Shown here piece after piece: positions 11,071 through 51,111 of a DNA stretch of 52,836 nucleotides. Made by a program: the position numbers and the translations under genes. Location of the stretch: positions 1 to 52,836 of the forward strand of contig KQ965892.1 in assembly GCA_001574975.1 (NCBI GenBank), written 5' to 3'. A model generated the notes under the pieces. That model saw only the letters and a list, made by a program, of their open reading frames with translations. It ran no database searches and was not told the DNA's origin. Source of the stretch: Gonapodya prolifera JEL478 (Eukaryota; Monoblepharomycota; Monoblepharidomycetes; Monoblepharidales; Gonapodyaceae). Position 1 is the first letter of the stretch. The number at the start of each line of letters is the position of its first letter.

Positions 11071-12282
11071 ATGGAAGTGATTCGATTCTCGCATCGCCTG
11101 AAAGAGTCCCTGGCCAAGTTGGATCTGCCGACGCAGGAGGACGTGGCGAAGAAAGTGCGGGAGTTCGATCTGGACGCGCCGGATGAGATTGCCGCCTGGT
11201 GAGTCCGCTTCGCTGCGATGGATTGAATGCCCAACGGTTCGACCTCATTGATTTATTTCAGGTACTGCGAGTTTTTGGAATCCAAACACATCAACATTGT
11301 GTTTGAGCACTTTCTTCACCTCATCAAGATCTCCTACGACCACCAAGACACCAAGATCCAGCAGCGCGCGCGGCACATCTTCAATGCCGCCGTCGTGTCG
11401 ACGTTCTACCGCCAGGTCGCCGAGACAGCCTTCCCCGGAGGCCGATTGCTCCCAGCTCTGGACCTGAGGTCGGCCATTGCCCGGAACCTCCTGTGGAAAA
11501 TCGCACGGTCAAGTCGGTGGGCCACACGAGCTCTTCTTGACCCGGCGTTTGGTGTCGCGGAGTCGACGCTGGGGACTGCGTGCGAGGAAATAGAGCGACG
11601 GCGGGATCCAAAGTACCACGACCGAGAGCGCGACAAGATGTTCGTGGTGACGGACGAAGGATTCGCACATCTCACTCGGAACCTTAAGCTGATGCTCGTC
11701 GCGGACGCGGGTGACGGGTACCCGAGGGCGCTCGAGAAGAGTAACCTTCGACTCAACAGGACCATTCTCATCGCGCAGGACAATGGCTCCACCGTTGTAC
11801 CACAGGAGCACATCGACCCTGAGGTACAGAAGCAGTGGTCATCGTACTTGGCGCTGGAACTGGGCAAGGAGGTGGAAGTCGGTGCCAAGTTTGCTGCCAT
11901 GTCGACATGGCCCAACAAACCGCCCGCAGCGGTGCTTCGGTCGTTCCGGGGGGCGCGGAGGTCGTTTCAAGAAAACGAGTTGGGCGCATGCTGCTGGAAC
12001 GCACGGTGTAAGGCGGCGGAAGCTGGGAAGGTGGTGTGGAAGAAGGGGAAACTCATCTACTGCAGCGGGTGCAAGGCGGCGCGCTACTGCAACGCCAAAT
12101 GTCGCAGCGAGCACGCGGAAATACACAAGAAGGCCTGCGACACTATTCCTCAGTTGAAAGGGTCGGACACTCTGGAGGCCCAAGATAAGGGACCCGTGGA
12201 CTTCTCAGAGGAGCTTTGGGTGCTCTTTGTCTTGGCGCTTATTGTTATCGGGGCGGTTGTGGTCAACTTTTTAATATCGTAG
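11071..12282 (+). CDS. MYND zinc-finger protein with C-terminal membrane anchor
   Basis: Two exons (11071-11198 and 11262-12282, 63-nt intron) encode 382 aa. Residues 1-280 are largely helical and match no family I can name. Residues 286-335 form a MYND-type zinc finger: CCWNARC, then YCSGCKAARYCNAKC, then HAEIHKKAC, with the full Cys/His ladder though the first Cys pair is widely spaced. MYND domains are protein-interaction modules. Residues 362-380 (LWVLFVLALIVIGAVVVNFL) are a single hydrophobic helix at the extreme C-terminus, the layout of a tail-anchored protein of the ER or outer mitochondrial membrane. That combination is unusual. The start is the first ATG and the exon junction restores Trp43. 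Shares a short divergent promoter with the PPR gene. Confidence 0.85.
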
Positions 12283-15371: not shown

Positions 15372-17406
15372 TCACACCATCCATCCCACCACGCCGAACA
15401 CACCCGCCACCACCGCTCCCATCAGCAACCCCACATCCACCTTTGCCTTCCACGCCGCGCCGCCTTTACTCGTCGGTGTGGACGTGGAGAATGTGTTCGA
15501 GCCCTGCGTCCCCGACGGAGCAGGGGCGGGGCCGCTGGGGAGTGTGGACGACGCAGCCGGGCCAGCGTACAAAGCGGAGAAGAGGATGACGTTGGTGCCG
15601 CGGTGGACGAGGTGGAAGAGGAAGGGTTTGTTGAACTGTTGAGGGGGGTAGGGTGGTCAATTAGCGGGAGGGAGGGGAGAAAGGCGGCACAAGGACACGA
15701 GACACGAACCTTCACTGTTGGCGGCGTGTCAGTGCCAGCGCTCGTAGCCACCATGACGACCGTTGCCGCGCTCGCCTCGGTCCCGTTCTCGTTGACGGTG
15801 AGGGTGGCCTTGTGGATCGCGCCCGTGACCACGAAGGGCACTGCTTCGTCCAGCCATGCGAACGGCCGCGTGAGAACCGAGTAGTCCCTGCTCCTGCTCC
15901 CGCTCCCGGGTTTGGTGGTATTGGACCCCCACATCTGCAGCAAATCGTACTGCGACTCGAGCTCGATCAAGCGAGGCACCACGAGATTCATCTTCGCCGA
16001 CGTCGCTTGCGGGGCTTTGGGCAGTTTGTCGCTTGTGATCGGCGAATCCTGCGGCGCGACCGTCGTGAAGGGCGTGAATGTGAGCGGGCCCGCGAGGTAC
16101 GCGAGGGCCGGGTTGTTCGCGAGGTCTGCCGGTGGGGTGAACGTGCCCCCGGTGGCGGCGTCGGGCTGCATGACGAAGTAGGCGTCGAAGGTGTGGTTGA
16201 AAGGTACCCGCACGGCGGTGTATGCGTCGGTGTTGATGTAGTCGAGGCGGGTTTGGAGGACCATGTACTGGACTTGGGTGATTGCCGGTTGGGATGAGGA
16301 GTTGCTTGTGGCGAGGACTTGGAACTCGGACGCCGTCGGTTCAGGCACGAACTTCTCCTTCCACGCGTCCTTGAAGTAAAACGCCGACGCCAGGACAGCG
16401 TCCATCTCTCTGACGCTACTGTCCACGACCTGCGTGATCTTGCCGTACGTCGCGGCGGCAACCCAGATGTTGATGGCGGTTTCGTTGAGAAGCGGTACGC
16501 TGGCGGTCGTGCCGAGGAGTTGCGTGGTCACGGTGGTTTGGTAGGAGGTGGTGATGTTGATGGGTTGTTTTACCCAGACGGAAGATGCGATGGCTGGGGA
16601 GGTGGTAGGGTGAGACGCGCGTATTTGAACAAGATCATTCGGCTGCGGCAGGAGTATTCGCTGGATACTCGCGCTTCGCGTAGCACATCTCGCCGCTCGG
16701 TCCTCGGTCAGCGCTATCGCGCTTGGGCCTCGGTATCCTCACCACTTTACGGACAACTCGGAATCCGTGCTTGGCACTCCATCCCTCACAACCCCCAACC
16801 CCCAAAGACAAACTCACAGACATTCGCGCCCGAGTTCTGCACGCTTGTCAGTACAAAATTCACACCGGCGATGTAGTCTGCGTAACTGACATTGGCGTAC
16901 AGCGGCGCGAGAAACAGGTCCGGTGTGCGAGCACCTGCCAAGGACGGAGGAGTAGGACGGAGGACGGACACGAGACGTGTGAGCAAGGTGACACGCGCGG
17001 CTGCGGCACCATTCCCCCATTCCCCCACTCCCCCATTCCCCCATTCCATGAACCGTCGACTCTCACCAGCAACAAGCAACGCAATCGCATGATGAATATT
17101 AAACCCCGAGAACGCGTACCCGAGCTTAGACTGCGTTGTTCCCACCCCAGTGACAGACTCGACGACAAGGTCCGCCAGGTACCTGTTGATGGTGTCCGTC
17201 ACGGGTACGACGCCCAGGGGTGCGGCTGTCGCTGGTGCCTGCCGCCGGGCGAAGCTGCCACTGTTACTGCCCCTGCCGTGGGTGTCAGGCGTGTGATGCA
17301 GAGTGGGCTTGTCAGCGTGCAAGCCAAAGCCCATTGCGGGAGTCGCCATCGCCATCACAATCAGCGCGAGGCAGAGCGATGTCCGCGCCACACCGAGTTT
17401 TCTCAT
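15372..17406 (-). CDS. Secreted serpin (serine-protease inhibitor fold) with hydrophobic C-terminus
   Basis: Exons 17067-17406, 16818-16934, 15710-16593 and 15372-15635 give 534 aa. Residues 1-26 form a clear signal peptide (CLALIVMAMATPAMG). Serpin landmarks follow in order: FSGFNIHHAIALLVAG (helix B region), INIWVAAATYGKITQVV, VLASAFYFKDAWKEKFVP (shutter and strand 3A), GAIHKATLTVNENGTEASAA, then KFNKPFLFHLVHRGTNVILF, which satisfies the serpin signature. The reactive loop (about 423-447) has the flexible hinge GTEASAAT typical of inhibitory serpins; the likely P1 region is made of small residues (Thr/Ser/Ala/Gly), suggesting an elastase- or subtilisin-like target. After the fold comes a Ser/Pro/Thr stretch and a final hydrophobic segment (GLLMGAVVAGVFGVVGWMV) that could be a GPI signal or a membrane anchor. 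Serpins are rare in fungi. Confidence 0.92.
16691..16733. repeat. GC-rich intronic repeat, copy in serpin intron
   Basis: Contains the core CCTCGGTCAGCGCT followed by GGGCCTCGG and lies inside the 224-nt third serpin intron (16594-16817). The same core recurs in the long BCAT intron at 38931-39019, in the same orientation relative to the transcript. Confidence 0.6.
17011..17047. repeat. CCCCCATT minisatellite in serpin intron 1
   Basis: Four to five tandem copies of an 8-nt C-rich unit with one variant (CCCCCACT). It sits within the 132-nt first serpin intron and does not touch coding sequence. Confidence 0.85.
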
Positions 17407-28406: not shown

Positions 28407-30288
28407 CTATTCTTTGAACATTTCTCTCGCTACAACTACTCTCATAATCTCATTTGTACCCTCTAAAATTCGGTGAACTCGCAAATCTAAGTTTCGGATG
28501 CGGAAGCATATTGACTATGTTGCGGGCCGATGGAAGGGAGAAAGGAAACTTACCTCTCAAGTACTGCTGTATGGGATAGTCTTTGAGATAACCGTATCCA
28601 CCTGTCAATACGAAAGAAAATAGCGCCAGTGTTATGGGTTCCTCTGAACGAACGGTGACTCACCCAATAGTTGCAATGCTTGGTCGCAAATCTAGTCCCA
28701 TTAAAGCACGCTCAAGGTCGTTTGGTGTCCAGTGGGATGGAGCAGAATATTCAACTCACATTATAACACTTCTCTGTCGCGTGCTAAATATACCGACAAC
28801 GACTGTGACAAACGTTTTGGCTAACAAAAGCACGCAATTACTCACTAGCTTCGCCATTGCGCATAGGGCAGGGACTGCTGGGTCCTGTGCATCCATTGCC
28901 TTGCCCGCTCTTCGCACCAACATTCTGGCGGCATTCAACTCTGTCGCCATATCGACCAATTGAAACTGTGTGTTTTGGAACGCAGAGATGGATTGACCAA
29001 ACTGCTTTCGTTGTTTGACATGCTCAAAGGCGTGCTCGAGCGCGGCTTGGGCTCCACCGAGAGAACTGCTGGCAATGTTAAGCCGCCCACCGTTCAGACC
29101 TTTCATAGCGATGGAAAATCCTTGCCCTACGCAGAGCGATGCAAGAGTTAATTTCACCAATCTGAACCAGAATTTGCAACCCACTCACCCTCCTTTCCAA
29201 CAAGGTTGGACGCTGGTACTTTGCAATCCTCAAAAATAACCGCACGCGTGGGTTGAGAGTTCCACCCGACTTTCTTCTCCTTCGCGCCGAACGAGAGTCC
29301 TTCCGTTCCCTTTTCTACGATGAAGCAAGAGATTCCCTTGGGTCCCGCTCCACCTGTGCGCGCCATCACAACGTATGCCTCCGAGTCTCCACCACCGGAA
29401 ATGAAAGCCTGGAGGGACCAGAGTCAAATTTGCGAAGATTTTGAAGAATTACTCTCACCAACCTTGGAGCCATTGAGGACGTAATAATCCCCTTCCTTCC
29501 GAGCAGAAGTAGAAAGATTACCAGCGTCCGAGCCAGCGTTGGGCTCCGTGAGACAATACGACGCCATTTTCTGTCGGCGATGATCATAAGAAGACAGAAT
29601 GTTGCACACTTTGGGGTCAACAACTCGCACCTCGAACGATGCCAATGACGGCAGGTACTTCTCCTTCTGCTGCACCGTGCCGTACTCGTCAATCATCCAT
29701 GCGCACATGTTGTGTATGGAGAGCAGTGCAGTCGTCGAGACATCTCCAGTGGCAAGCGCCTCGAATATGACTGAGGCGTCCAAACGGCCCAGACCGGTTC
29801 CACCAAAGTCGGGCGAGCAGTATATAGCTGAGGTATTCGATAGCGTGTCATGGGCAGCCGGTCTGGATGTATGAGCCGGAACGGTGTGCATCTTCACCTC
29901 CGAAGCCAAGTTCCGCTGCTTTCCGCATAGCCTTCTGAGGCCAGATTTCATTCAAATCCCATTCGCGCATGTTTGGGGCCTTCAAGGAACAGCGTCAGAT
30001 GTGGCATCGATTCGAGAAACGTCGAGGGCAACGCACGAATTCGGTGTCCGCAAACCTTTTGGCGCTTGCTGGAACTCTAGCTGCTCTTCCGTCAGCCCCT
30101 CTGACCCTAGATGTCCGTAACTGCTTGAGATCGGAAGTCCAGCGGAGAGAGCTTTGAGAAAGGAACATACAGTTCACGACACTCGCGAATCCTGAGATGT
30201 TTCGCGGTCGATTCATCGTCGGAGTAGCACATTGAAGCACGCGAGTAGATTTTCTGATGCATGCGCGTGCGCTCTTTGCGGCTAGCAT
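28407..30288 (-). CDS. Acyl-CoA dehydrogenase, isobutyryl-CoA (ACAD8)-like, copy A
   Basis: FAD enzyme oxidising a short branched acyl-CoA in mitochondria; the closest group is isobutyryl-CoA dehydrogenase of valine catabolism. Exons 30037-30288, 29898-29979, 29631-29827, 29463-29570, 29189-29408, 28846-29126, 28760-28783, 28664-28691, 28554-28601 and 28407-28486 total 1320 nt (439 aa). Motifs: [36 protein letters not shown] (FAD), [42 protein letters not shown]-type [30 protein letters not shown] and [10 protein letters not shown] with the catalytic Glu. The basic start ([14 protein letters not shown]) suits mitochondrial import. Oddity: the helix [12 protein letters not shown] is encoded but out of frame with KRFADTEF by one base, so the predicted protein carries an altered N-terminal segment. 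Confidence 0.85.
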
Positions 30289-30465
30289 GGTTGATGGAGA
30301 GAATGGTGATGACGCAGTGGAAGGGTTCTTCGGTGCATCTCTTGCTGGAACCATTTCCCTTCTTTGAAGGGAGTTGGGAGACGCGCAAGTACCGTATATC
30401 TCAAGCGCAGCAGTATGACGATATGTACAAGATTTTATGTACTCGTCACCCTCGACGACATACCG

Positions 30466-31901
30466 TCATTGTGCCTCCCCTGCCGGCGACGTCTTTGAGA
30501 CACTGAATCTGTACATGTCCCCATGCTTGAGATACACGAGCTCGGTAACATCAGTGAGCTCCTTGTCCTTGGCTGCGAGGTCTTGAAACTCCGAGAGAGG
30601 GCTTTTGAATAGATCGTAGTCGTTGTAGTGACTGGGAATATAATGTTTTGGGGGAGCCCGGCGTCCATGAGTGCTGTTGTTCCACATCAGGGTCCACAGG
30701 CATGACTTACACCGGAATTGCGACTTTGGGCTTGATAATCTTGAGGCACTCGACCCCCTATGGAGTACGCAGTCAATATTGGCTCATCAACACACGCAGC
30801 GTCGTCGCAACTCAGCTCACTTGCGCTCCATCCATGGTGACAACAAAGACCTTCAAGATCGTTGTGCCCCCCAAGTGGACGAGAGCCAAAGAGATATTCG
30901 GGAAGCGCTTGGGAATTTCCTGTGATGGTGAAAACATTATGCGGTTGGCTCGCCCCATCTAGTTTCTCCCACATACCTTCAAATCGTCGTAAAGGAGAGT
31001 ATCCCCCGATATCCAGAGTCGAAATTTTGGCGCCAAAGCTGATGCGGATCCAAAGTCGATGAGGGAGCCCATCACTGGAGGTAGTACTGGGTACAATTCA
31101 GTAATACAATTCAGTAAGCGATGGAGGATGACGAATGTTCGTAACGCAAGTACGAACGGAAACCCAGTCCAGTAGGTGCGTGCTTTCCCGGTGTTGCAGT
31201 AATGCTGACGGACGAGCTTCCCTTTGTGAACGTGATCTTGTCCCATGTTGAAAGCTCGTACAGTGTGGTTTCTTTAAAGCGATCAAGCTTCTTGATGTTC
31301 TCGACGCCGTGGGGTGTGGTGACGATGGGAATGTTGACCGGTCCTGTTTCGCAACTGCCGTGAGAAGAAGATGGAGGAGGGACGAACCAACGCGGTGCAC
31401 ATCGTACCTTTTTCCATAAATATTTTGTCAAAATGGTCCTCGTGAAAGTGGGATAGCACTACAAAAGCGGAGGTTAAGTCTTTGATCGATGTGCACCATC
31501 ATGCCAACTACCCACCGATGAAATCCACGTCCTTCGGTATGTCTCCGAGCTCTATCGCCGGATCTGTCAAGCGGATTGCCTCAACTCCAGGGCCCAGATG
31601 AGCGTGATCTCCCTTGTGGAGGAAGTTGGGATCTGGGGGCATTGAGCCAGTGACTTCAGCAACAGCAACGAATGCTTTTCGTCGGAGACTCTCACCCGTC
31701 ATGAAGCAGAATCCACCATAGCTATTTTAGGATGGTGATATCAACCCTCGCCGCCTGCCGTCTCCGACAGCTTTCGAAAGAAGACGAAAGCCCTCACCGA
31801 AAGATGACCGTGGCTGTGCCGACGAAAAGGACTTCTCCGTTCTGGATGTCTGGCTCCGACGAGGGGTCGGCAAGCTTGATTGTGTACTTTTCTTGCGCCA
31901 T
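30466..31901 (-). CDS. Metallo-beta-lactamase-fold hydrolase (Lactamase_B_2 / UlaG-like)
   Basis: Nine exons (31798-31901, 31696-31721, 31516-31632, 31408-31458, 31164-31343, 30977-31086, 30821-30919, 30711-30757, 30466-30631) total 900 nt (299 aa). The N-terminus GEVLFVGTATVIFRYGGF is the first beta hairpin. The zinc motif HFHEDH lies at residues 86-91, followed by PIVTTPHGVENIKKL, ITATPGKHAP, WISGDTLLYDD (zinc Asp), LVHLGGTTILK, FVVTMDG and the C-terminal VHYNDYDLFKSPLSEF with the last metal His. This layout matches cytosolic MBL hydrolases of the UlaG/NAPE-PLD-like branch, often acting on lactones or phosphodiesters; the substrate is unknown. It is adjacent to and co-oriented with the dehydrogenase, and a truncated copy lies at 34300-34416. 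Confidence 0.88.
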
Positions 31902-32054
31902 AGCGTCAGTTGACCGATGAGAAAGGCGTGTCACTGCCAGGGGAAAAAGCGGGGTATCTCCCAGTCCCGATCCTGCTGCGGTCAGTGTGGCGCACCTGAA
32001 CCGGTCAACGTGACACACTTCTCTAGCACCTGGGTTGTACTGGGAGCTGTCGCG

Positions 32055-32145
32055 TGTGGCTCGAGGAAGGGCACTCCAGCCAAGGAGGTGGACAAGCTCG
32101 CCCAAGGCAGGCACTAAATTCATTCTTACCTCCACCATTTCCCAA
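32055..32145. repeat. Spacer repeat of the tandem array, copy 1
   Basis: Upstream of the MBL gene. Shares blocks such as GCTCGAGG, CACTAAATT and CCTCCACCA in the same order with 35916-36003 upstream of hydrolase 2, marking both as the same ancestral divergent intergenic region. Confidence 0.65.
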
Positions 32146-32204
32146 ACCACTCAAACCGGACTACCGCTCCCTGACATCTGGCCTCCAAATTAAGTATGTA
32201 TCCA

Positions 32205-34100
32205 CTATTCTTTGAACATTTCTCTCACTACAACTACTCTCATAATCTCATTAGTACCCTCTAAAATTCGGTGAACTCGCAAATCTAAATTTCATATGCG
32301 AAAGCATATTGACTATGATGCGGGCCAATGGAGGGAAAAGGGAAGCTTACCCTCTATGGTACTGCTGTATGGGAAAGTCTTTGAGATAACCGTATCCACC
32401 TGTCGATACGAATAAACATTACCACCAGTGTTGTGGGTTCCTTGGAGCGAACAGTGACTTACCCAAGAGTTGCATTGCTTGGTCACAAATCTAGTGCCAT
32501 TATAGCGCGTTCAACGTCGTCATTCGGTGTCGGGTGAGATGGAATGGGATATTCAACTCACATCATAACATTTCTCCGTTGCATGCTAAATTACACTGAC
32601 AAGGACCGTGAGAAACACTTTGGCCAACAAAAGCACGGAATTACTCACCAGTTTCACCATCGCGCATAGGGCAGCGCCTGCTGAGTTTTGCTCTTCAATG
32701 GCCTTGCCCGCCCTTTGCACCATCATTCTGGTGGCATTCAGCTCTGTCACCATATTTAGCAGTCAGAACTGTGTATTTTGGAACAAAGAGATGGGTTTGC
32801 CAAACTGCTTTCGCTGTTTGACATGCTCAAAGGCATGCTCAAGGGTGGCATGGGCTCCACCAAGAGAACTGATGGCAATGTTGAGGCGCCCACCGTTCAG
32901 GGCCGTTCATGGTGATGGAAAATCCCTGCCCTACACAGAGCGATGCAAGAGCTTATTTCACCAATCTGAACCAGAAATTGCAACCCACTCACCCTCCTTC
33001 CCAACAAGGTTGGACACTGGTACTTTGCAATCCTCAAAATAACTGCACGTGTCGGTTGAGAGTTCCACCCAACTTTCTTCTCCTTTGCGCCAAACGAGAG
33101 CCCTTCTGTTCCCTTTTTTACAATGAAGCAAGAGATTCCCTTGGGTCCTGCTCCACCTATATGTGCCATCACAACGTATACCTCAGAGTCCCCACCACCG
33201 TAGATAAAAACCTTGAGGGTCTGGGGTCAAAAATACTTGCGAACATTTTGATGAATGACCCTAACCAACCTTGGAACTATTGAGGACGTAATAGTCGCCT
33301 TCCTTCTGCGCAGTAGTGGATAGATTACCAGGATCCAAGCCAGCGTTGGGCTCCGTGAGATGATACGGCACCATTTTCTGTCGGCGATGATCATGAGAAG
33401 GATGTACAAACACTGAGGGGACACCACAACTCCCACCTTGAATGACGCCAGTGATGGCAAGTACTTCTCCTTCTGCTCCACAGTACCGTACTCATCAATC
33501 ATCCACACAGCCATGTTGTGAATGGTGAGTAGTGCAGTCGTCAAGACATCTCCAGTGGCAAGCGCCTCGAACATGATTGAGGCATCTAAGCAACTCAGAC
33601 CAGTTCCACCAAAATTGGGCGAGCAGTATATAGCTGAGGTAGTTGACTGCGTGTCATGTGATGGGTTAGGGGTCTGAAGTTATGAGCCGGAACAGTGTGC
33701 GTCTTCACCTCTGAACCCAAGTTCCGCTGCCTCCCGCATTGCTTCTTGCGGCCAGATTTCATTCATATCCCATTTGCGCATATTGGGAGCCTTCAAAGAG
33801 CTGCGTCAGAGGTGGCATTGGCTTGAAAGCATTGAGCGTAACTCACGAATTCAGTGTCAGCAAACATTTTGGTGGTCTGCTGGAACTCAAGCTGCTCATC
33901 TGTGAGCCCCCTCTGACCCTAGACACTCAGGAGTATTTGAGATCAAAATGCTCAGCAACAGAAGTTTGAGAAATGAACATACAATTCATGACGCTTGCGA
34001 ATCCTGAGATGTTTCGCAATCGATTCATTGTCAGAGTAACACATCGAAGCACGCAAGCGCAAGTGTGGATGCATGCGCGTGCGCTCTTTGCGATTAGTAT
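32205..34100 (-). pseudogene. Acyl-CoA dehydrogenase copy B, pseudogene
   Basis: Collinear with copy A through all exons, and most splice sites remain. Lesions relative to copy A are loss of the start codon (ATG to ATA, plus positions 34098-34100), an extra G near 33915 before LTDEQLEFQQ, a one-base loss in a T run near 33037 that turns VIFEDC into VILRIA, an extra C near 32900, and TGA at 32763-32765 in the QNTQFQL motif. The FAD and substrate motifs are also eroded: NAGSDAG reads NAGLDPG and ISGGG reads IYGGG. Copy B keeps EQLEFQQ-TTKMFADTEF in one frame, which shows that copy A lost one base there. Confidence 0.9.
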
Positions 34101-34299
34101 TGTTGATGGATAGAATGTGATGATGCAGCTGAAGGTTTTAAAGAATGGTGATGACGCCGGGAGGAAGGTTTTGATTTGTGCATCTTTTGCCAAACACATC
34201 ATTTGGCAACAATTTTGAAGGGCGTTTGCATGACGTGCAGTACTGTTACACAAGCGCAACAGCATGACAATGTTCACCAGAATTCCTGTACTCGTCACC

Positions 34300-34416
34300 G
34301 TCAACAACATCCCCTCGTTGTTGCCTGGTTTGCGGTTCTAACAAACGGGACTTGTCCGTTCTAATCTGGCTGTGAGGGGTGGTCTGCAAGCTTGATGTAG
34401 TATTTTGCTTGCTCCA
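34300..34416 (-). pseudogene. MBL-hydrolase remnant (first and last exon ends only)
   Basis: The start MEQAKYYIKLADHPSQPD, at plus 34363-34416, is homologous to the start MAQEKYTIKLADPSSEPD of the intact gene. It is fused to about 45 bp resembling the intact gene's last exon. About 1.3 kb in between is gone, so unit 2 of the array carries only a scar of this gene. Confidence 0.8.
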
Positions 34417-34680
34417 TAGCGTCAGTTGTTGTATTTGAAACAAGTGTCACTGCTGGGGTGAAAAGGAAGGCCTGAACCCGTTTACCCCCGAAATGGGCCC
34501 ACACCCACACCTCACTATGGTCACTAATACCCGCCACACACCCGTCCCCCATTAATTCTGCCTCTGATTTAGTTCTTGCATGTTAATTCTCTTGTCCAGG
34601 CACATCGAACCCTGGATCCCGATTCTTGTTCCATGCATGAAAGCCATAGAGAACCTTGTGGTTGTCTTGTCCAACCAACC

Positions 34681-35635
34681 ATGACAATTGACATCAACGC
34701 CACACACTCCTATGCAAATGGCGACCTGGCACTGCATTATGCCAGCGTCGGCCCCGCGTCAGGCCCAATCATTGTGTTCCTGCACAGCATTGGTCTCTTC
34801 AGGCACTCCTGGTGGGACTTTGCCCTGGACCTTGCGCCCAAAGGGTACCGGTGCTTCCTCCTTGACGCCTGTTGGCACGGCAAGTCTGACCGAGCTGGTG
34901 GGCGGTACACGAGGACAGACTATACCTCGGATGTGATTGCCTTCCTAGATGCGGTGGTTAGGCCATGGGGGAAGAAGTGCGTCTTGGTTGGACATTTGCT
35001 CAGCGGCCTTGTGTTGTATGAGGCCAGTGCTGCACGGCCGGAACTAGTGGCGGGAATGCTTCTTGAAGGTGAGACTCGGCCTGTTGCTTCATTTGTCATA
35101 CCTGCCCTCACTTCATCCACCCCCCAAACCCTCAGATCCGCCCATCTACATGACGCACGCTAGGCTGGTCTCAAGTCCGTACCACTCCGCCTTCAAGAAA
35201 CTTTGCAACAACTGCAGAGCCTGCCAAGGCGCGAACCTACCCGTCGCGCACGTGCAGCAACTCATCACCGCCAGTCCTATCGCACTTGGCGTTCCTGTGA
35301 CCAGACGCGAATCGCTCACCGAGGCGGCACTCGTCGCGTTTGCCCATGGACTCCTCTCGTTGGACCCAGTCGTTTACGATACGCTCCTCAGTCCGGATGT
35401 GATGACCATCAATGGGGACGACAAGCCAAGTTGCGTTGTTGCGGGCATCTTGCTACGTGCGCAAACGGAGCTTGGACCCGCTTTTCTAGAGGAAGATACA
35501 GAGAGGTTCAGGAAGGCGGCGCCAGACGTGGTTGAGGTCAAAGGCGCTGGGCATCTGATTCATTCCTCTCGCGCCAGCAGAGGTGCCGTTGAGGAGGCGC
35601 TGGACAAGGTTTTGAGTGCCGCATTCGGGGTGTGA
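34681..35635 (+). CDS. Alpha/beta-hydrolase copy 1, catalytically compromised
   Basis: Two exons (34681-35068, 35136-35635; 67-nt intron) encode 295 aa, open throughout. It is clearly paralogous to 36187-37130, with shared segments RHSWWDFALDLAPKGYRCFL, DAVVRPWGKKCVLVGH and QGANLPVAHVQQLI. Key residues differ: the oxyanion HGLG is HSIG, DARGHGKSD is DACWHGKSD, and the nucleophile elbow GHSLGA is GHLLSG, so residue 106 is Leu instead of Ser. The catalytic His context (GAGHLIHSSR) is intact. With no nucleophile it should not hydrolyse esters by the usual route; it may be a pseudoenzyme or an early pseudogene. No stops or frameshifts are present. Confidence 0.88.
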
Positions 35636-35722
35636 TAAACAATACAACAAACGTGCGCGTTGCTTTTACATTGGGTTGCTTGTGATCGTTGAAGGCAATA
35701 ATATAATATTTACGACTCAAGT

Positions 35723-35787
35723 CTATTCAGAGAATCCCTCCTGAACAACCATCACCATCACGTACGCCCAACTGACAGTCGTGATCC
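35723..35787 (-). pseudogene. 3' fragment of small membrane-protein gene
   Basis: About 65 bp matching the end of the gene at 37195-37446, including the stop region. The rest of the gene is absent and homology ends abruptly near 35788. Confidence 0.75.
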
Positions 35788-35915
35788 TAGGCTGGTATGC
35801 CGCTCGCCCCTCCGCTGGTGCCAGATTAACTGTCGGTGTCACGTTCAATCTACAGATGCGGCCAGTGTGGGACACCTGGGCCATTCCAGATCGATTTCCC
35901 TGTGGGCGCTCGCCT

Positions 35916-36003
35916 CGTGTTGCTCGAGGGAGGGGACTCCAACCTCGGGGTGGATAATAAGCCCGCCCAAACCAAGCACTAAATTATGCGAACCTCCACC
36001 AAA
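35916..36003. repeat. Spacer repeat of the tandem array, copy 2
   Basis: Counterpart of 32055-32145 on the same strand; here it lies upstream of hydrolase 2. Confidence 0.65.
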
Positions 36004-36186
36004 TCCCAGACGCGAACTCGCTGATTAAAGAACTGTTGCAACTGTGACCCCTTCTACTCTTATGAGGCCGCATCATTCCGGGGCAATAATTGCCCCTGGT
36101 CAACAGAAGGGTCGTGCGGCAGCCTGGATCCCGAGCCTTCAACCATAAAAAGCCGAAACCAACGCCGCCTTCTATCCCAACCACCC

Positions 36187-37130
36187 ATGACAATGGACAT
36201 CGACGCCACGCACACCTACACAAACGGCGATCTGACACTGCAATACGCCAGCGTTGGCCCCGTGTCCGGTCCCATCGTTGTGTTCCTGCACGGCCTCGGC
36301 CTCATCAGACACTCCTGGTGGGACTTTGCGCTGGATCTCGCGCCCAAGGGGTACCGATGCTTCCTCCTCGACGCCCGTGGGCACGGCAAGTCTGACCGAG
36401 CTGGTGGGCGGTACACGAGGACGGACTACACCTCGGATGTGATCGCCTTCCTAGATGCGGTGGTTAGGCCGTGGGGGAAGAAGTGCGTCTTGGTCGGACA
36501 TTCCCTGGGCGCCGTCATGGCGTATGGGGCCAGTGCGGCACGGCCGGAACTTGTGGCGGGAATGCTTCTTGAAGGTAAGACATTGACTCGTCGGGCCGTA
36601 CTAGGACCTCATCCAAAACCGCAGACCCGCCCATGTACATGACATTCGCACGCCTAACCTCAAGCCCATACCATGGCCTCTTCGCAAAACTTCGTGAAGA
36701 CTGCAAAGCCTGCCAAGGTGCGAACCTACCGGTCGCTCACGTCCAGCAACTCATCGCCGCCGACCCTATCGCGCCGGGCGTTCCCGTCACCATGGGCGAG
36801 TCGCTCACCGAAGTAGGACTCGTCTCGTTGGCCCAGGGTATCCTCTCAGTGGACCCAGCCGTGTACGATGCCGTCCTGAGTTCGGATGGGGCAACCACCG
36901 ATGGAGATGACAAGCCTAGTTGTGCTGTTGCTGGAGTTTTGTTGCGCGCCCAGAAGGAGTTGGGACCCGCTTTCCGCGAGGAAGATGTAGAGAGGTTCAG
37001 GAAGACGGCTCCGAACGTGCACGTGGTGGAGGTGAAGGGTGCTGGGCACATGATTCATTCCTCTCGCGCCAGCAGAGGTGCCGTTGAGGAGGCGTTGGGC
37101 AAGGTGTTGAGCGCTGCTCTCGGGGTGTGA
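36187..37130 (+). CDS. Alpha/beta-hydrolase copy 2, intact
   Basis: Two exons (36187-36574, 36625-37130; 50-nt intron) encode 297 aa. Motifs: FLHGLGLIRHSWWDF (oxyanion HG), DARGHGKSD, VLVGHSLGAVMAYGAS (nucleophile Ser106 in GHSLG) and EVKGAGHMIHSSR (catalytic His). The acid is probably the Asp in DPAVYDAVLSSD or nearby. It resembles soluble esterase/lactonase-type hydrolases. No signal peptide. In the ancestral array block it is divergent from the MBL hydrolase, sharing a promoter region. The substrate is unknown; neighbours suggest acyl-CoA or lactone metabolism, which is inference. Confidence 0.9.
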
Positions 37131-39894: not shown

Positions 39895-41345
39895 GGTGCG
39901 AGAAGTCAGGGCGGGTAAACTGTGGCAACGATTTATCCACTGCACCCATTCGTCGCGCTATCGATGGCTCGCAGCGAAATAAGTTGTTCAAAGCTTCACG
40001 CTGCCGTCATAGCAAATCCCCAACTCGTCTCCACGGTCACGTCACCTGAAGCTGCCGAACAGCAAACCGAATCACCTGATGTGATCACAAAACTGGCAGC
40101 GCGTTCGAGCATAACAGCCGCTCAAACGCTCTGCAGATTTGCGGTCACATCTTTGCGCCATCCAACAGCGTTTCCGCTTTTCGTCCACGCTTGCTTTCTC
40201 CATGATGGGACTGGGAGCCTGCCAACCCCAATCGCTTCACGCCCGACTGTCTTACCGTCTGTGGATATCCTCTCTGAATATGTTGTAGTCACGTTTTCAA
40301 GTGGTCTGCGTGGTCACAACGTTCCCCATCCTCCAAAAATGTTCCAACCATCGCTCTACAGGGACCAATCGAGACGCCCGCGAAGGCCAGGTAGCTGTCG
40401 GAGCGCAGGACGGCTTTTTCGAATTGACACACGTGCCGATGATGCCGTTGTCGCGTACGATGTTGTTGCTGGCTGACAATCCCGCCTGCAACCCGGGGCA
40501 GGACAAAGTTGTGTGTGATGTACATCCCGATGGCAAAGCCAAGGTTGAATGCTCCGCTGTTTATTTTCGCTCTGAATGTTCGGAGGGTATTTGCACGAAT
40601 ACCTGGCTTCCTTGTAACGGCATATCTACGAGCAACTCGGGTGTAATTTAGGTTTTCGCAAATATCATTCCTCTTGTACGCAAACCCCAATACGATTCGA
40701 GTGCACCTCCCCTTCGCCAGCTTGCGTTGATAGCTGGGGCCATCGAGACCGCCGCGGGTGACATTGTCGGGCGCTGCGGACAGGGACCTACATCTTGAGT
40801 GGAGAACGGAATAACAGAACGCGCCAATTCTCACGAGCCAGCGAGCTCTCTGCACCTCCACCCGAAGCCCGACGCTACTTCCCACCGTGGAACGACCGGA
40901 AGCATTTATTTGAGGGCATGGGGGACGAAACTTCGGCGGGGGGCCGTTGTGGCACCGGACTTCCGATTCGACACCGACCTTTCATTCTTATTGAGCTTCG
41001 TCCCCGCGCAAAATTCCAGCTACGCAGACACTCGCGAAGAACAAAAGTGCTGCAAAATTTAAGTTTCTGTAATGTCAACGCTGTAATATCGCTGACATCA
41101 CAGTCGCGCGATCAGTGCAACGAGAACGCTCTCCCATCTTGTGCAGAAGTGGCGTAGTTATCTGCGACATCAAAGCCACTGCGAACGGCGGCATCGCCAT
41201 TATATGCGTCTCATGTTAGGATTCACCGCGGCGCCCTGCCCGAATGATCGGTGGTTGAGGGTGGTGGCTCCCCATTGATGTTCCGCTGGAGTAAACATGA
41301 CGCATAAAGAATGAGACTCTCCACTGCTCTCAGTGCCGACCAAAC
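39895..41345. other. No gene identified
   Basis: Contains the BCAT promoter at its left end and the lipase promoter at its right. ORFs of 184-198 aa overlap on both strands (39922-40476 plus, 40289-40885 minus), but none shows a domain or splice structure I recognise. A Cys-containing stretch near 40410-40500 on the minus strand might be part of a small secreted protein; this is weak. Confidence 0.4.
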
Positions 41346-42870
41346 ATGTTGCTCATACACTTCTCGGTCGCAATCGCGGCCGTACTCACCTTCTTCGCGT
41401 CCTCATCCCAAGCCACGGACGATGTGTACAACGCCGTACTTGCCTCATGGCAGCAGGGCATGATCGAGAACGTCTTCAACAGCACCTTTTACGCGACGCC
41501 GGGCAACTTCTCCAGCAATTCGTCCAAACCGGGCGAGATTCTCAAATTCGAGAAAGTCTCTGGATCGGACCTGGATAAGGTGTACGCCTACCCGCCGGGA
41601 CTTACACTCTACCGCATGCTCTACGTCTCCAAGGACTTGACCCAGAAACCCGTCCCCGCGAGCGCGTTCATCCTCCTGCCTTACACCACCAAGTTCACGG
41701 GCGTGTCCGAGATGCGCACCGTGGTTTGGACGCACGGCACGTCTGGAATCACAAGGGACTGTGCCCCCAGCGTTCAGGTAAGTTGGACGAGTTCCTCCCT
41801 TGGCACGGCGACTGATCACACACTCTCCCCCCCCGCCCCCGCCCCCCCCTCGTAGCGCCAACTCTACTACGACTTTGTCGGCCTCTACCTCATCGCCATG
41901 AAAAGGTACGCCATCATCGCCCCCGACTACGCCGGGCAAGGCGCCGACACACAATTCAACTACGTCTCGGCGCGTTCGCACGCATACGACGTCGCATCTG
42001 CCGTCATAGCCACCCGCATGGCGTTCCCCAAAGGCTTTCTGAGCTACGACTGGGCCGTCATCGGACACAGCGAGGGCGGTCTGTCTGCATGGGCCGTCAA
42101 CGAGCACCAGGCTGTGGAGCCACGGGCGGGTTCCTCGGGGCGGTCTCCGTGGCGCCCGCCATGGATCCTCAGTCCATCAACCAGCGTCAACTGGGTCTTG
42201 CGGAACTCCGCGCCGCGATGGAGGCCGCCGGCACTGTGTTCTACCCCGTAACGTTCCTCGAATCGATTCGGCGCCTCAACGCCACCGCCGTCAACGTGTC
42301 CGATTGGCTCACGCCCAAAGGAGAGAAGGTCCTCGAGTACATCTTGAAGGGCGGATGCTTCGCCGTGGGGAACGCACTGGTCGCTGGATCCAAGATTGAA
42401 GATGTGAGTTCTCTTCTAATGCCTTGCCACACTGGCACCTGTCTGCCATTTAATCACGCGTCCACACCTTCACCCAGATCTTCAAGAGCGTCGCCTGGGT
42501 AAACGCCTCATTCACCGACGCCTGGACGAACAACGTGCAATCGCGTGGTGTTGGCGCGCTGGCAGGGCCCATGCTGGTGGTACAGGGGGACAAGGACGAG
42601 GCCGTCGACCCCTACACCAACTTCAAGGCGTACCAAGCCAACTGCGCCGCGAACAAGGACAGCAAGATCCGGTACAGCATCTACCCGGACATGATGCACG
42701 GACCGGTGGTGTTCGCTGGGTTCCTGGAGTACACGCAGTTCCTCTGGGCGCTGTTCGAGAAGGACCCCTGGGTCCTTCCGTCGACCTGCGAGAGCTCCTA
42801 CCAGAACGCGACGATCGCAAGCCCGAACCTGGCAATTAACTTTGCTACTAGATTCGAAACCGGCCAGTAA
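41346..42870 (+). pseudogene. Secreted lipase-like alpha/beta hydrolase, copy 1, single frameshift
   Basis: Resembles fungal secretory lipases. The signal peptide is IHFSVAIAAVLTFFASSSQA. Motifs: RTVVWTHGTSGITRDC (oxyanion region), YAIIAPDYAGQG, DWAVIGHSEGGLSAWAV (nucleophile elbow), GPMLVVQGDKDEAVDP (acid loop) and YPDMMHGPVVF (catalytic His). Exons 41346-41777, 41856-42403 and 42478-42870 total 1373 nt, exactly one short of a codon multiple. The frame changes between NEHQAV (about 42115) and GGFLGAVSVAPAMDPQ (about 42128). Copy 2 at the same point is one base longer, so copy 1 lost one base about 15 codons after the nucleophile. The protein would be truncated before the acid and His. A C-rich tract (41827-41850) lies in intron 1. 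Confidence 0.8.
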
Positions 42871-43242: not shown

Positions 43243-44417
43243 ATGTCTGCCCACCCCACTCTGCCATGGACACGCCCGCAATTCGCACCCTCTACCATCG
43301 ACAACGACGGCACGAACACCCTCATGTTCGATGTGAGGAAGACCCTGGCCGTCGTCAAGGATGGTCCGGCGCTTGTCAACTGGTGCGTGTTATCGTGCTC
43401 CACCTTGTGTCAAATGCGACCCAAGCAATACCTGATCCACTTCCAGCATCTACATGCTCTACTTCATCACCACAACCTCGGGCCAGAAATTCACATCAAC
43501 ACAAACATATACGTGCACGGGAGCAAAAGAATCGGGACCTTCCTCTCCGTCAGCGACCTTACCGCAGGCAAGTCGCGCGGATGCGCCGTCATCGGACCAG
43601 GGTCGGCAAGCACAGAACGGCAAACATTCAGAGCCCGGCGCAGTCGTTCGTATCCCAGGAGGGCGGTGACAATTTGACATCAAACTCGACCTGCAGGGCA
43701 TCCAGCTCGATCTCGCCATGACGCCCACGGGTCGGCATCCCTACTATGGTGGAAGTGGCGGGTTGCAGATGGTGCCCAAGGGTGAGTCCACCGACATTGA
43801 CGTTGTGTCGTACGGATGGTCGTGGTACTGGGTGGGTAATTACGCCAAAATTCTTCATTAGACACCATTCAATGGTCACCCTCCCAACACTGCCCCAGGC
43901 CAACCCCACGGTCCGCCTCACTGGCACACTCACTGTGGACGGTACACAGCACACCATCGACACCTCCGAGTCCTTCGCTTTGTTTGAGCCGCAATGGGGC
44001 CGGTTCATAGGCGCACCGGGGTACTGGGCCATGTGGTTCTACCTGGACACTGGCGAGGTCGTCCAGTCGTGGTGTATTGCCCCGGACGTCGACGGATACG
44101 CCAAGAACTCGTTCGCGTGCGTGTGGGAGCCTTCTGGCGTACACCAGATGATGCCTGTGGGACCGAAAACTTGGGGTTCGGACCCAGCCACAAGCGCGTC
44201 GGGCCAAAACTGCTACAACACGTTCCATCTCGACTTACGGGCCAAAGACGCCCACTCTACGGAGCACAAGTGGGAACGGGACAGCGAGTTGACTGCCCTG
44301 GAGGGAAAGTATATTACGATTTCGGAAAGCTACTGCGAGGGAGCGGGAAGGTGGAATGGAAAGGACGTCAAGTTCTTTGGCCATTTGGAGCAGTGGAGTG
44401 GTGATAGTGTTTATTAA
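43243..44417 (+). pseudogene. AttH/CrtC lipocalin-like protein (kievitone-hydratase family) with one in-frame TGA
   Basis: This double-lipocalin family includes carotenoid 1,2-hydratase, kievitone hydratase and fungal Diels-Alderase-like enzymes. Exons 43243-43382, 43447-43831 and 43899-44417 total 1044 nt. The N-terminal lipocalin has MLYFITTTSGQKF and QFDIKLDLQGIQLDLAM followed by YYGGSGG. The C-terminal one begins VRLTGTLTVDGTQHTID, then FEPQWGRF and WFYLDTGEVVQSWCIAPD, and ends HLEQWSGDSVY. A TGA at 43667-43669 (codon 121) interrupts an otherwise continuous frame between IPGGR and QFDIKL. The segment before it (about residues 75-118) is low in family similarity and may hide compensating indels. 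No signal peptide. Function cannot be assigned beyond family. Confidence 0.72.
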
Positions 44418-47246: not shown

Positions 47247-49621
47247 GGGTGCGTGGAAAGTTCGCTGGTTGCGACGATTTGGGATCGGCCGAGGACGGAG
47301 AGAAAATATAAGGTGAGTCGGTATGGTGCGGCACCCTCATTTCCTCACACCTCACGCTCAGTGCCGAACACATATTATTTTGGATATACTCACGTGGTTT
47401 TTTCCGATCGGAATACTGAGTCTGCTGAGAGCTGTGGGGAAAAGAATTTCATTTGCCCATTCCTCCGGCTGCTTTCTCACCGCGTCCTCTCCCCATCTTT
47501 GCGGGGTTGTTGGAGGAGTGGCTGAGCCTCGGGTATTCATCCACGTCACTGTTCGTCGTGAACAGTTCGTGACCTCAAATCTTTGAGGAGAGGGGCGGTA
47601 AGTAGTCGGTAAGTACAGTCCACTCCCGGTAACTGCAGACCAGGTAACTGCAGCCATGCACTATCTCCATGCAAAATTTCCGCCTCGGCAGGTGGTATCT
47701 GCAGGTTTATACACTAATTGCAGGGCATTTTGCTGCCCCGAAGCCTGCAGTAAGCGGGAGTAGACCGTACTGTATACCTCGCATATACTCGCGAGCGGGG
47801 ACATCGGCGAGATTCGGGTGCGGCGAGAGTCCACCCGGCGTTATGTCTGCTGGGTACCACAAATTTTATTCGCTCGTGTCGCCAACGAGAACGTCGAAAT
47901 GGTACAAATGGGTCCCCGGTCGCCTTTTGCCTGGAGCCACATACGTCTATGATTGCTTGTGATCCATGATGGCGACCGGTTTTCATTGACTTTAGATTTT
48001 CAGAGAAATCCGATTTGGAGCCATCGCGATATCAACTAGAAGCAACATTCAAATGAGAGTTCAAATACATGTGCCACCACCCCCGAGAATACAGTGCGTC
48101 CAGAAGCGAAGCGATTTTTCCTTGGTTTTCAGATTCAACAAGGAAACCTGAAGGTCCATGGACGTCAGCTCGAGACAGTGCAATACGAGCGACATCCGCG
48201 ACAGAACTTGGAGCAAGCCCCAAGCGTCCTCGTCAAGGGTCCGAAGATTCAATGACAGACAGGGCCCCCCGATGGGGATCCTTCTAGCTGTCACGCTAGA
48301 AAGAGCAGATACTACACTTGAGCTCAGACAATAGGCCTGAGAGGATACAGATGCAGGAAATCGGGGCATTTTTTCATACCCTCTGGTGCGCAACGGCCAT
48401 GAGGCCGTGTCGCGGTAAGTGGTATCGCTTCCACAGCAGTCATGAATCTCTCGGACTTGGCGCGTGGTGGTTGCGCGTGCCAATATCTCCCTCCCCTGTG
48501 AGTGATGCGGTCATGACAGTCAATCTTTTCTCCACCTGACCGCTTGACGTTGACCTGCCTGAACCACACCCACACAGCACAACGAGCTCCAAGCGACCGC
48601 CAAAACCCAGTTGGGAGACGTGACCTGACCTGACGTGTCGCACCGACATATCGCGTCCCTGCAGGCCAAGACACTCAACTCACGGCAACCGCTTGCGCTA
48701 GGGTTGTGCAATTCGGAGTGCTGCGTGTCTTCTGACGTACAGGATCTGTGTGGAAAAGCTGAACAGGTGTACACGTGGACGTGATAAGACAGAGCGGTGG
48801 AGATGGTTGGTGGTGGATGAGTTAAATAGTGGGGCATCGCCGGTGCTATTGTACGTTTTATAAAATACATCTAAGCAGCGAGAGAGACATTGATATTGTG
48901 GGGTGGACGGAGTATGGATCACTTGTGTGTGAATCTTGATGGGCGAAGCGGCAACGTGGTGGTGGTGGGAGTGGCTCGACTATCTAATTTTTGAAAGCCG
49001 AATTTCAACAATGCGCTTCGACCGCCTGCCAGTCCCATCCTCCACCGCTGACACTCACCCTCCTCACAGGGACGATATGATGAGACCGCGTTAACTTCTA
49101 AAATCCGCCTACTAGACAGCGACCAGTTGAGATCTCGCCACTATGCTACCCAAATTACGCCCAATGAAGATTTGGAAGGTAGGCCCCAGCAACTGCGTGA
49201 ATGCCTTTGCCTGAAGCAGAGCAGGGGCGAATAGCGTGAGACCATCCCTCGCTCCATCTGCTATATGTAGCTTCTCAAACAAAAAGGTGCAAGCAATCGT
49301 GCGAGAACCGGCAATCTTGCACCATGGCACCGAACACGCTCTACGAGGTCAACTGGGAAATAACATCCAGGGAACGCCACGTCTGTGCCTCTGGGCGTCG
49401 AGGTCTCACGGTCTCTTGAGCACAACCTGCGAATGTAACCAGGTCCCAAGGTTTGCTTTTTGGCTTGGGTTTGGTAATAAGGGATGTTTCCCATCCCTTG
49501 CAAGCTGCTCGCACAAAGTACCAATGCGGCGCCCTCTCCCGATATAATCATTTAAATACCACATTGATACCAGTCATTAGCTTCCTCAGCTGACCGAGCG
49601 ACGGAGCTACAATATCCAAAA
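47247..49621. other. Long gene-poor region
   Basis: About 2.4 kb with only short overlapping ORFs. A small direct repetition of GGTAACTGCAG occurs at 47627-47656. No tRNA, transposon end or protein domain was recognised. It separates TmpA from the second lipase copy. Confidence 0.45.
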
Positions 49622-51111
49622 ATGCTACCAAACCTGATCCTTTGCACAATCGCCGCGGCCTCCGTCTTCTTTGCCACCGGCACGTCAGCCATGGATAATG
49701 TGTACAACGCGGCTCTGGCTACTTGGCAGCAGGGCATGGTCAAGAATGTCTGTAATAGCACCTTCTACGCGACACCTGGCAACTTTTCTAGCATCCGCTC
49801 CAAACCGGGGGAGGTTCTCAAGCTGGAACGAATCTCAGGAGCTGCTCTGGATAGAGAATACGCCTATCCGCCGGGACTTGTCCTCTTTCGCATGCTCTAC
49901 GTTTCCAAGGACCTTGACCAGAAACCCGTGCCAGCGCGTTCATCCTGGTCCCTTACGACGCCAAGTTCAACGGCCATGCTTCGATGCGAACCGTGGTCTG
50001 GACTCACGGCACATCTGGAATCACGAGAGATCGCGGACCGAGCGCTCACGTTTGAGTCCCTCGTTTGAGTGGCAGCGTTTATTTCGTCACTCATTGATGA
50101 CCTCGGCCCACCCCCACCCCATCCCCACAGAGGAACCTCTACTACACTTCGAAGGTCTCTACCTCCTCGCGCTCCGCGGGTACTTTGCTATCGCCCCCGA
50201 CTACGCCGGGCAAGGCTCCGGCACGCCCTTCCATTACGTGGCCGCTCGTTCCCACGCATGCGACGTCGCATCGGCCGTCATTGCCTCCCGCGCGGCATTC
50301 GCAAAGGAGCTCATCATCTACGAGTGGGCCGTGATCGGACACAGCGAGGGCTGATTGACCGCATGGGCCGTCAACGAGCACCAAGCTGCCTAACAAAAGA
50401 GCGGCTTCCTCGGAGCCGTCTCGGTGGCTCCCTCGATTCATCCTCAGTCCATCAACCAGCGCCAGCTGAGCATCCCACAGCTCCAGGCGGCGATGGAAGC
50501 AGCTGGTACGGCGTTCTACCCTTTGAAGTTCTTGGAGTCGATTCGGCGCCTCAACACCACCCACGGCAGTCAATGTGTCCGATTGGCTGACTCCGAGAGG
50601 GGAGAGAATGCTGCAGTACTCGCTCAGAGGTGGATGCATTTCGGCGGGAACTGCGTTGGTTAATGGATCCAAGGTTGATGAGGTGAGGTTTAATTTTTTA
50701 CATGACGTCATAGGGTGCCGCTCTGCTCCCATTCCCTAACTTCAACTCTGCACCCAGATCTTCAAGAGCGTTGCCTGGGTAAACGCCTCGTTCACGGACG
50801 CCTGGACGGCCAACGTGATGACACGCGGGGTGGACCCCTTGGCAGGCCCGATGTTGGTTGTGCAAGGAGATGCAGTTGGGGCCGTGGACCCCTCACCAAA
50901 TTTCAACGCATACCAAGCCAACTGCGCTGCGAGCAAGGACAGCAAAATTCGGTACAGTATCTACCCCGGAATGCGGCACGACCCGTTGCTCTTTGCAGCG
51001 GCGATGGAGTACATGCAGTTCCTTGGAGGTCTCTTCGATCGATACGCGAAAGTGCTCAAAAACCGTGCGAGCACGGGTACCGAAACGCAACTGCGGGAAC
51101 TCCCAACCTGA
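49622..51111 (+). pseudogene. Secreted lipase-like alpha/beta hydrolase, copy 2, pseudogene
   Basis: Paralogue of 41346-42870 with the same three-exon structure and shared stretches such as NSTFYATPGNFSS, YAYPPGL, PDYAGQG, QSINQRQL and IFKSVAWVNASFTDAWT. The signal peptide is LILCTIAAASVFFATGTSA. Lesions are a 4-nt loss near 49936 that breaks PVPASAFIL, TGA at 50353-50355 directly after GHSEG (the second Gly of the elbow), TAA at 50391-50393, and further frame changes near 50570. Conserved catalytic-His context YPGMRHDPLLF survives near 50965. The ORF at 49622-50068 would make only the N-terminal third. Confidence 0.88.

Follow-up and report, generated by a model that had tools for sequence, protein, structure and literature searches.

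A serpin gene of a flagellate fungus with a signal peptide and a putative GPI-anchor signal

Does a fungus display a serpin on its cell surface, and if so, by what kind of anchor and as a working protease inhibitor? The question is raised by a gene on the minus strand of the window, the 52,836-nucleotide stretch of DNA analysed here, which runs from 17406 to 15372 and encodes a product of 534 residues. The interval 15372-17406 given by a first-pass annotation is reproduced exactly by a four-exon model. Its three introns (132, 224 and 74 bases) all read GT...AG and have phases 1, 1 and 0. The exons are as follows:

17067..17406, minus strand: exon 1, encoding the signal peptide, a linker that contains a dibasic Arg-Arg, and the first part of the serpin domain
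16818..16934, minus strand: exon 2, with intron positions and phases identical in a paralogue
15710..16593, minus strand: exon 3, bulk of the serpin fold, last residue Lys447
15372..15635, minus strand: exon 4 (stop included), final serpin strands, stalk and hydrophobic tail

The joins between exons 1 and 2 and between exons 2 and 3 are supported by an alignment to conserpin (query residues 98-243) that crosses both, and acceptors other than 16593 were rejected because, as worked out by hand, they break the reading frame. Two donors differing by two codons (Val-Lys) are possible at the end of exon 3; the longer was adopted because it yields the serpin consensus PPTVKFNKPF. Third-position GC is 0.70 in exon 1, 0.83 in exon 3, 0.86 in the core part of exon 4 and 0.78 in the tail, compared with 0.49 (17766-17407) and 0.57 (17595-17407) in the in-frame sequence 5' of the ATG. 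This contrast supports both the coding nature of the tail and the start at 17406, and start codons farther 5' were rejected on the low values upstream. The frame 5' of the ATG is open, making an upstream start formally possible, and the signal peptide or the tail could in principle be missing from the mature message. We consider such an artefact very improbable: besides the GC values, the gene and its paralogue have intron positions in common, and the stalk and tail continue, in an uninterrupted frame, the portion of the serpin core that exon 4 encodes. Since it lies in the same exon as the final serpin strands, the tail depends on no splice guess.

The product is a serpin, as had been proposed. 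The 534-residue protein matches Pfam PF00079 (serpin) with E=2.7e-37 and 129.3 bits, against a curated cut-off of 27, and the Pfam scan gave no other family at E<=0.001. Among PDB sequences there were 159 matches at E<=0.001, the best being conserpin (PDB 5cdx) and antithrombin (PDB 1ant). An AlphaFold2 model was built for exon 3 alone (294 of the 534 residues, covering none of exons 1, 2 and 4) from an alignment containing 47 of our 80 prokaryotic relatives, and has a mean pLDDT of 74.9 and a pTM of 0.73. With this model Foldseek returned 350 matches at E<=0.001, with TM-scores of up to 0.68 by query length; the 50 listed among them are all serpins, judging by their titles, and include miropin and Entamoeba histopin. 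The exon 3 fragment is thus predicted to adopt the serpin fold.

The host is a fungus, as first supposed. The assembly searched (47.6 Mb in 207 contigs, with 14 prokaryotes as controls) matches chitin synthase at five places and has 72 stretches matching Fungal_trans and 24 matching CBM_1, a fungal cellulose-binding domain, and it encodes the flagellar transport protein IFT46; the same searches found nothing in any of the 14 controls. Together these matches indicate that the host is a zoosporic fungus, one with flagella, and that it has cellulose-binding domains. Homocitrate synthase was rejected as a fungal marker, as no stretch of the assembly passes the cut-off and all 14 controls match, two of them over the cut-off. 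Frames flanking the serpin gene carry PPR, MYND, triple KH, kinase, ankyrin and other domains, and one is nearest to Uba4 chains. Other features seen in the window are:

11227-12282, plus strand: MYND-finger protein with a terminal 20-mer of mean hydropathy 2.9, probably membrane tail-anchored
28756-34300, minus strand: apparently two adjacent acyl-CoA dehydrogenase copies, by Pfam for 28756-29184 only and by eye for the remainder
34573-37130, plus strand: two similar, adjoining alpha/beta-hydrolase genes, probably a tandem duplication
41301-42870 and 49568-51111, plus strand: two similar proteins about 8 kb apart, secreted and lipase-like by eye, the first with no Pfam match in the two frames scanned
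43722-44417, plus strand: open frame of 231 residues with no Pfam match at E<=0.001

The genome search recovered at least one other serpin, a paralogue (L001) on contig C20 (G000:C20) with exons at 1049-1256, 1320-1439, 1499-2286 and 2341-2427 in locus coordinates. It is 33% identical to the window serpin and shares its three intron positions and phases (1, 1, 0); it has neither signal peptide nor hydrophobic tail and is presumably cytosolic. Its gene model is less certain than that of the window serpin, because two of the three acceptors have the uncommon ending AAG. Its reactive loop, ...AAAATVIVNTRSMVRPAS, carries Arg-Ser close to P1; this may point to a trypsin-like target, in contrast to the window copy. 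A scan of a viral collection with the alignment of these two serpins gave 60 pattern matches and no relatives.

A quick tree was made from 83 rows: 79 prokaryotic serpins, the references ovalbumin and conserpin, and the two fungal serpins. In it the fungal copies form one clade with an SH-aLRT of 98, apart from all other rows, and ovalbumin and conserpin place among the prokaryotic rows; branches are long, no other fungal or plant serpin was included, and only the pairing of the two fungal copies is trustworthy. That pairing agrees with the shared introns. Two serpins of uncultured Clostridia (L042 and L047) have the hinge ENGTEASAA and a Thr-Ser-Ala loop and are 24% identical to the window serpin; the likeness is likely convergence, because the tree keeps them apart from it. 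A loop like that of L042, together with the patchy distribution of serpins in fungi, could be taken as the mark of a contaminant or of a recent horizontal acquisition from a bacterium or an animal. Several observations make this even less probable than a faulty gene model: (i) the two serpins of the assembly have three intron positions and phases in common. (ii) They form one clade outside the 79 prokaryotic rows and the two references, on which ground recent bacterial transfer was rejected. (iii) The identities of prokaryotic serpins to the window serpin are 21-29%. (iv) The flanks hold families common in eukaryotes (PPR, MYND, triple KH) and one Uba4-like frame. The first two points in particular render contamination or recent bacterial transfer unlikely. 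The gene was thus not found in a contaminant animal or bacterial clade lacking fungal flanks, in a tree that had only two non-prokaryotic references.

The segments that bear on the location of the protein were predicted by hydropathy and general sequence rules:

17329..17406, minus strand: signal peptide as predicted by rule, residues 1-26 (MRKLGVARTSLCLALIVMAMATPAMG), cut site Ala-X-Gly
15459..15557, minus strand: Ser/Thr/Pro stalk, residues 474-506, ending in Gly-Gly
15456..15464, minus strand: candidate GPI attachment region Gly505-Gly506-Ala507, with small residues, a spacer of 7-8 residues and the hydrophobic tail
15375..15434, minus strand: C-terminal hydrophobic tail, residues 515-534 (VGLLMGAVVAGVFGVVGWMV), mean Kyte-Doolittle hydropathy 2.2

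Both the signal peptide and the Ser/Pro/Thr stalk with a hydrophobic C-terminus had been noticed at first reading, and both hold: the 17-mer from residue 11 has a hydropathy of 2.09, 19 of the 33 stalk residues are Ser, Thr or Pro, and the tail is 20 residues long. The protein has eight N-glycosylation sequons where the paralogue has three, and no cysteine after the signal peptide where the paralogue has six; both counts agree with entry into the secretory route. A Kex2-type protease could process the protein at the Arg-Arg of residues 54-55. A tail of this kind seldom arises by chance. Simulation of 200,000 continuations gave 64,513 that were 45 residues or longer; among these, 23 end in a 20-mer with a mean of at least 1.7 and three combine such a 20-mer with a Ser/Thr/Pro stalk, at thresholds that were fixed with the tail already in view. 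The window itself contains 505 stop-terminated frames of at least 60 residues, and 4 of them, the serpin frame included, reach 1.7.

A GPI signal consists of small attachment residues, a spacer and a C-terminal hydrophobic tail. By rule the protein has all of these together with the signal peptide, and the genome encodes the GPI-transamidase subunit Gpi16 (best stretch E=1.4e-62), the one subunit searched. A 20-residue hydrophobic stretch could also span a membrane, and since the GPI call is rule-based only, the protein might be a type I transmembrane or a secreted serpin with no GPI anchor. Type I transmembrane helices usually follow a positive-inside pattern. Here, the tail is the very end of the protein, with no residue after it, and the spacer between stalk and tail carries two lysines, 510 and 512, ahead of the hydrophobic segment, contrary to that pattern. 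On these two grounds the tail is likelier to be a GPI signal than a transmembrane helix and, with the transamidase subunit also encoded, we regard a transmembrane or secreted form as improbable. The first-pass annotation had allowed either type of anchor; the GPI alternative is probable by rule, and the transmembrane one is the less likely.

Whether the serpin inhibits proteases depends on the hinge, the reactive loop and the core. The relevant positions are:

15761..15790, minus strand: hinge P17-P8, E421-T430, ENGTEASAAT, by alignment to solved serpins
15740..15742, minus strand: predicted P1 Ser437 (P1' Ala438), 16 residues past P17 by counting and by ungapped loop alignment to antithrombin

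The loop equals that of antithrombin in length in this ungapped alignment, and the letters GTEASAAT first reported for the hinge are present within E421-T430. The available text of a superfamily survey gives the inhibitory hinge motif P17-P9 as ExGTEAAAA, where x is E, K or R (PMC8233489), and ENGTEASAA agrees with it at all positions but P16 (Asn) and P11 (Ser). Our prokaryotic set comprises the best 80 of 163 relatives, found with two peptide patterns of which one was the hinge, so that hinge conservation within it, including Asn at P16, is largely by construction. The sequon N422-G-T overlaps the hinge, and a sugar at N422 could hinder loop insertion.

Among 76 aligned prokaryotic serpins, 73 columns have one residue in 75% or more of the rows; the window serpin has that residue at 45 of these columns and the paralogue at 41. 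Four replacements stand out in this comparison, in which some alignment columns are possibly off by one: N103 (Ser in 74 of 76 prokaryotic rows), S222 (Asn in 75 of 76, and changed to the same state in the paralogue), G101 (Pro in 73 of 76) and A468 (Gly in 76 of 76). In the customary serpin numbering these would be S56N, N186S, P54G and G386A, S56 and N186 being shutter residues and P54 lying beside the shutter. Two of the six members of the core set S53, P54, S56, N186, H334 and G386, in the same numbering, are kept (S100 and H413). The first-pass description of a full, intact serpin core was right about the serpin but, given the near-invariant core changes and the sequon overlapping the hinge, "intact" is an overstatement.

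These replacements around the shutter and at A468 could mean that the protein, although held at the surface by a GPI anchor and folded as a serpin, has lost inhibition and serves in binding, structure or sensing, much as non-inhibitory serpins of the ovalbumin type do. Ovalbumin likewise departs at the position of S222, where it has Asp, and the hinge sequon points the same way. In some Streptomyces serpins breach and shutter departures are, in the available text of the survey, a sign of non-inhibitory function, and many of these proteins keep the hinge (PMC8233489). Against such a loss, the hinge has the E, G, T, E, A, A and A of the inhibitory motif, P11 being Ser, and the exon 3 model, which is a fragment model, predicts the loop as a strand directly after the long strand that precedes it. 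We judge the loss of inhibition unlikely, though clearly less so than a transmembrane or secreted form, and inhibition of proteases to be probable. Because the equivalents of P54, S56, N186 and G386 are replaced, the protein is filed here as a serpin rather than as an inhibitory serpin, with inhibitor-like working the likelier reading; of the inhibitory type originally proposed, the hinge stands and the near-invariant core positions do not. The small P1 residue, Ser437, would suit subtilisin- or elastase-like enzymes. That such enzymes of other organisms are the targets was a reasonable guess from the Ser at P1, but the fungus's own proteases are equally possible; its genome contains serine-protease stretches, 14 matching S8 and 21 matching S1, and stops interrupt some of them.

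Taken together, the data favour, with moderate confidence, a GPI-anchored cell-surface serpin of a flagellate fungus that traps proteases via its reactive loop. The protein would enter the secretory pathway by its N-terminal signal peptide and would probably be N-glycosylated; the hydrophobic tail would be lost and a GPI anchor joined near Gly505, so that the stalk would carry the serpin domain either at the plasma membrane or within the cell wall. Any serine protease that cut the loop, most likely at Ser437-Ala438, would be trapped by the usual serpin loop insertion. It would end covalently attached to Ser437, with the GPI anchor on the fragment from Ala438 onward. Because the cut would separate the trapped protease from the C-terminal fragment that bears the anchor, the complex would stay on the cell after reaction only via non-covalent strand contacts. 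The probable job of such a protein would be to shield the cell surface from proteases, its own or those of prey, hosts or competitors.

If this is correct, a captured protease would be either held on the surface or shed, depending on the hold of the C-terminal fragment, and an anchor lying across the cut from the protease raises the question of the trapped protease's fate. The arrangement is also relevant to the resistance of zoosporic fungal surfaces to proteases, among them those that the fungi make themselves. A fungal serpin that lacked targeting signals may have been duplicated, with later changes in targeting giving rise to the GPI-anchored copy, and copies with and without such signals in one genome offer a natural pair for studying change of compartment.

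Serpins in fungi are already known. The available texts describe celpins and other serpins of early-diverging fungi, with reports from Neocallimastigomycota and Entomophthoromycotina (PMC8778642), and also name Metarhizium, Aspergillus, Fusarium and Trichophyton (PMC13236867), so that the initial view of serpins as rare in fungi needs updating. What appears new is the GPI-tethered placement, a combination not found in the literature searched: no GPI- or membrane-anchored serpin of a fungus was found among the matches listed from open-access literature, subscription journals being mostly outside the search, and work on membrane- or surface-anchored serpins dealt, among the matches listed, with animal serpins only.

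The nearest fungal comparison is the celpin of Piromyces, which is a fungal serpin domain tethered outside the cell, as the window protein is predicted to be. As described in the available text (PMC8778642), celpin has CBM_10 and sits in the cellulosome, whereas the window protein has no dockerin and has a GPI-type tail. The suggestion that its tethering is unlike that of celpin is borne out by Pfam, which finds no dockerin in the protein; a CBM_10 search of the genome also gave nothing, but it had no match in any control either. The myco-serpin of Metarhizium brunneum is likewise encoded by a fungus; its knockout reduced virulence to flies, and in the text available it has 365 residues, a serpin domain at 13-365 and no apparent C-terminal extension (PMC13236867). 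Antithrombin and conserpin, the best sequence matches, are without stalk or tail, and antithrombin has Arg where the window serpin has Ser437. The paralogue has the same introns but no targeting signals, and an Arg-Ser loop.

The closest parallel in placement is with the membrane-anchored prokaryotic serpins, in which an inhibitor is likewise fixed at the cell surface. In these the N-terminus is anchored (PMC8233489, available text), whereas in the window serpin it would be the C-terminal tail. Among our 80 prokaryotic relatives, 29 have a loose lipobox match and none has a hydrophobic C-terminus, the hydropathy of their last 20 residues being at most 0.86. The same 2021 survey, in its available text, classes eukaryotic serpins as intracellular or extracellular, restricts membrane-anchored serpins, by N-terminal signals, to prokaryotes and leaves fungal serpins unplaced (PMC8233489). 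A GPI-tethered serpin, if confirmed, would add a placement beyond these two eukaryotic classes. We give an even chance to the broader reading that the protein is a eukaryotic counterpart of the membrane-anchored prokaryotic serpins, reached independently via the C-terminus.
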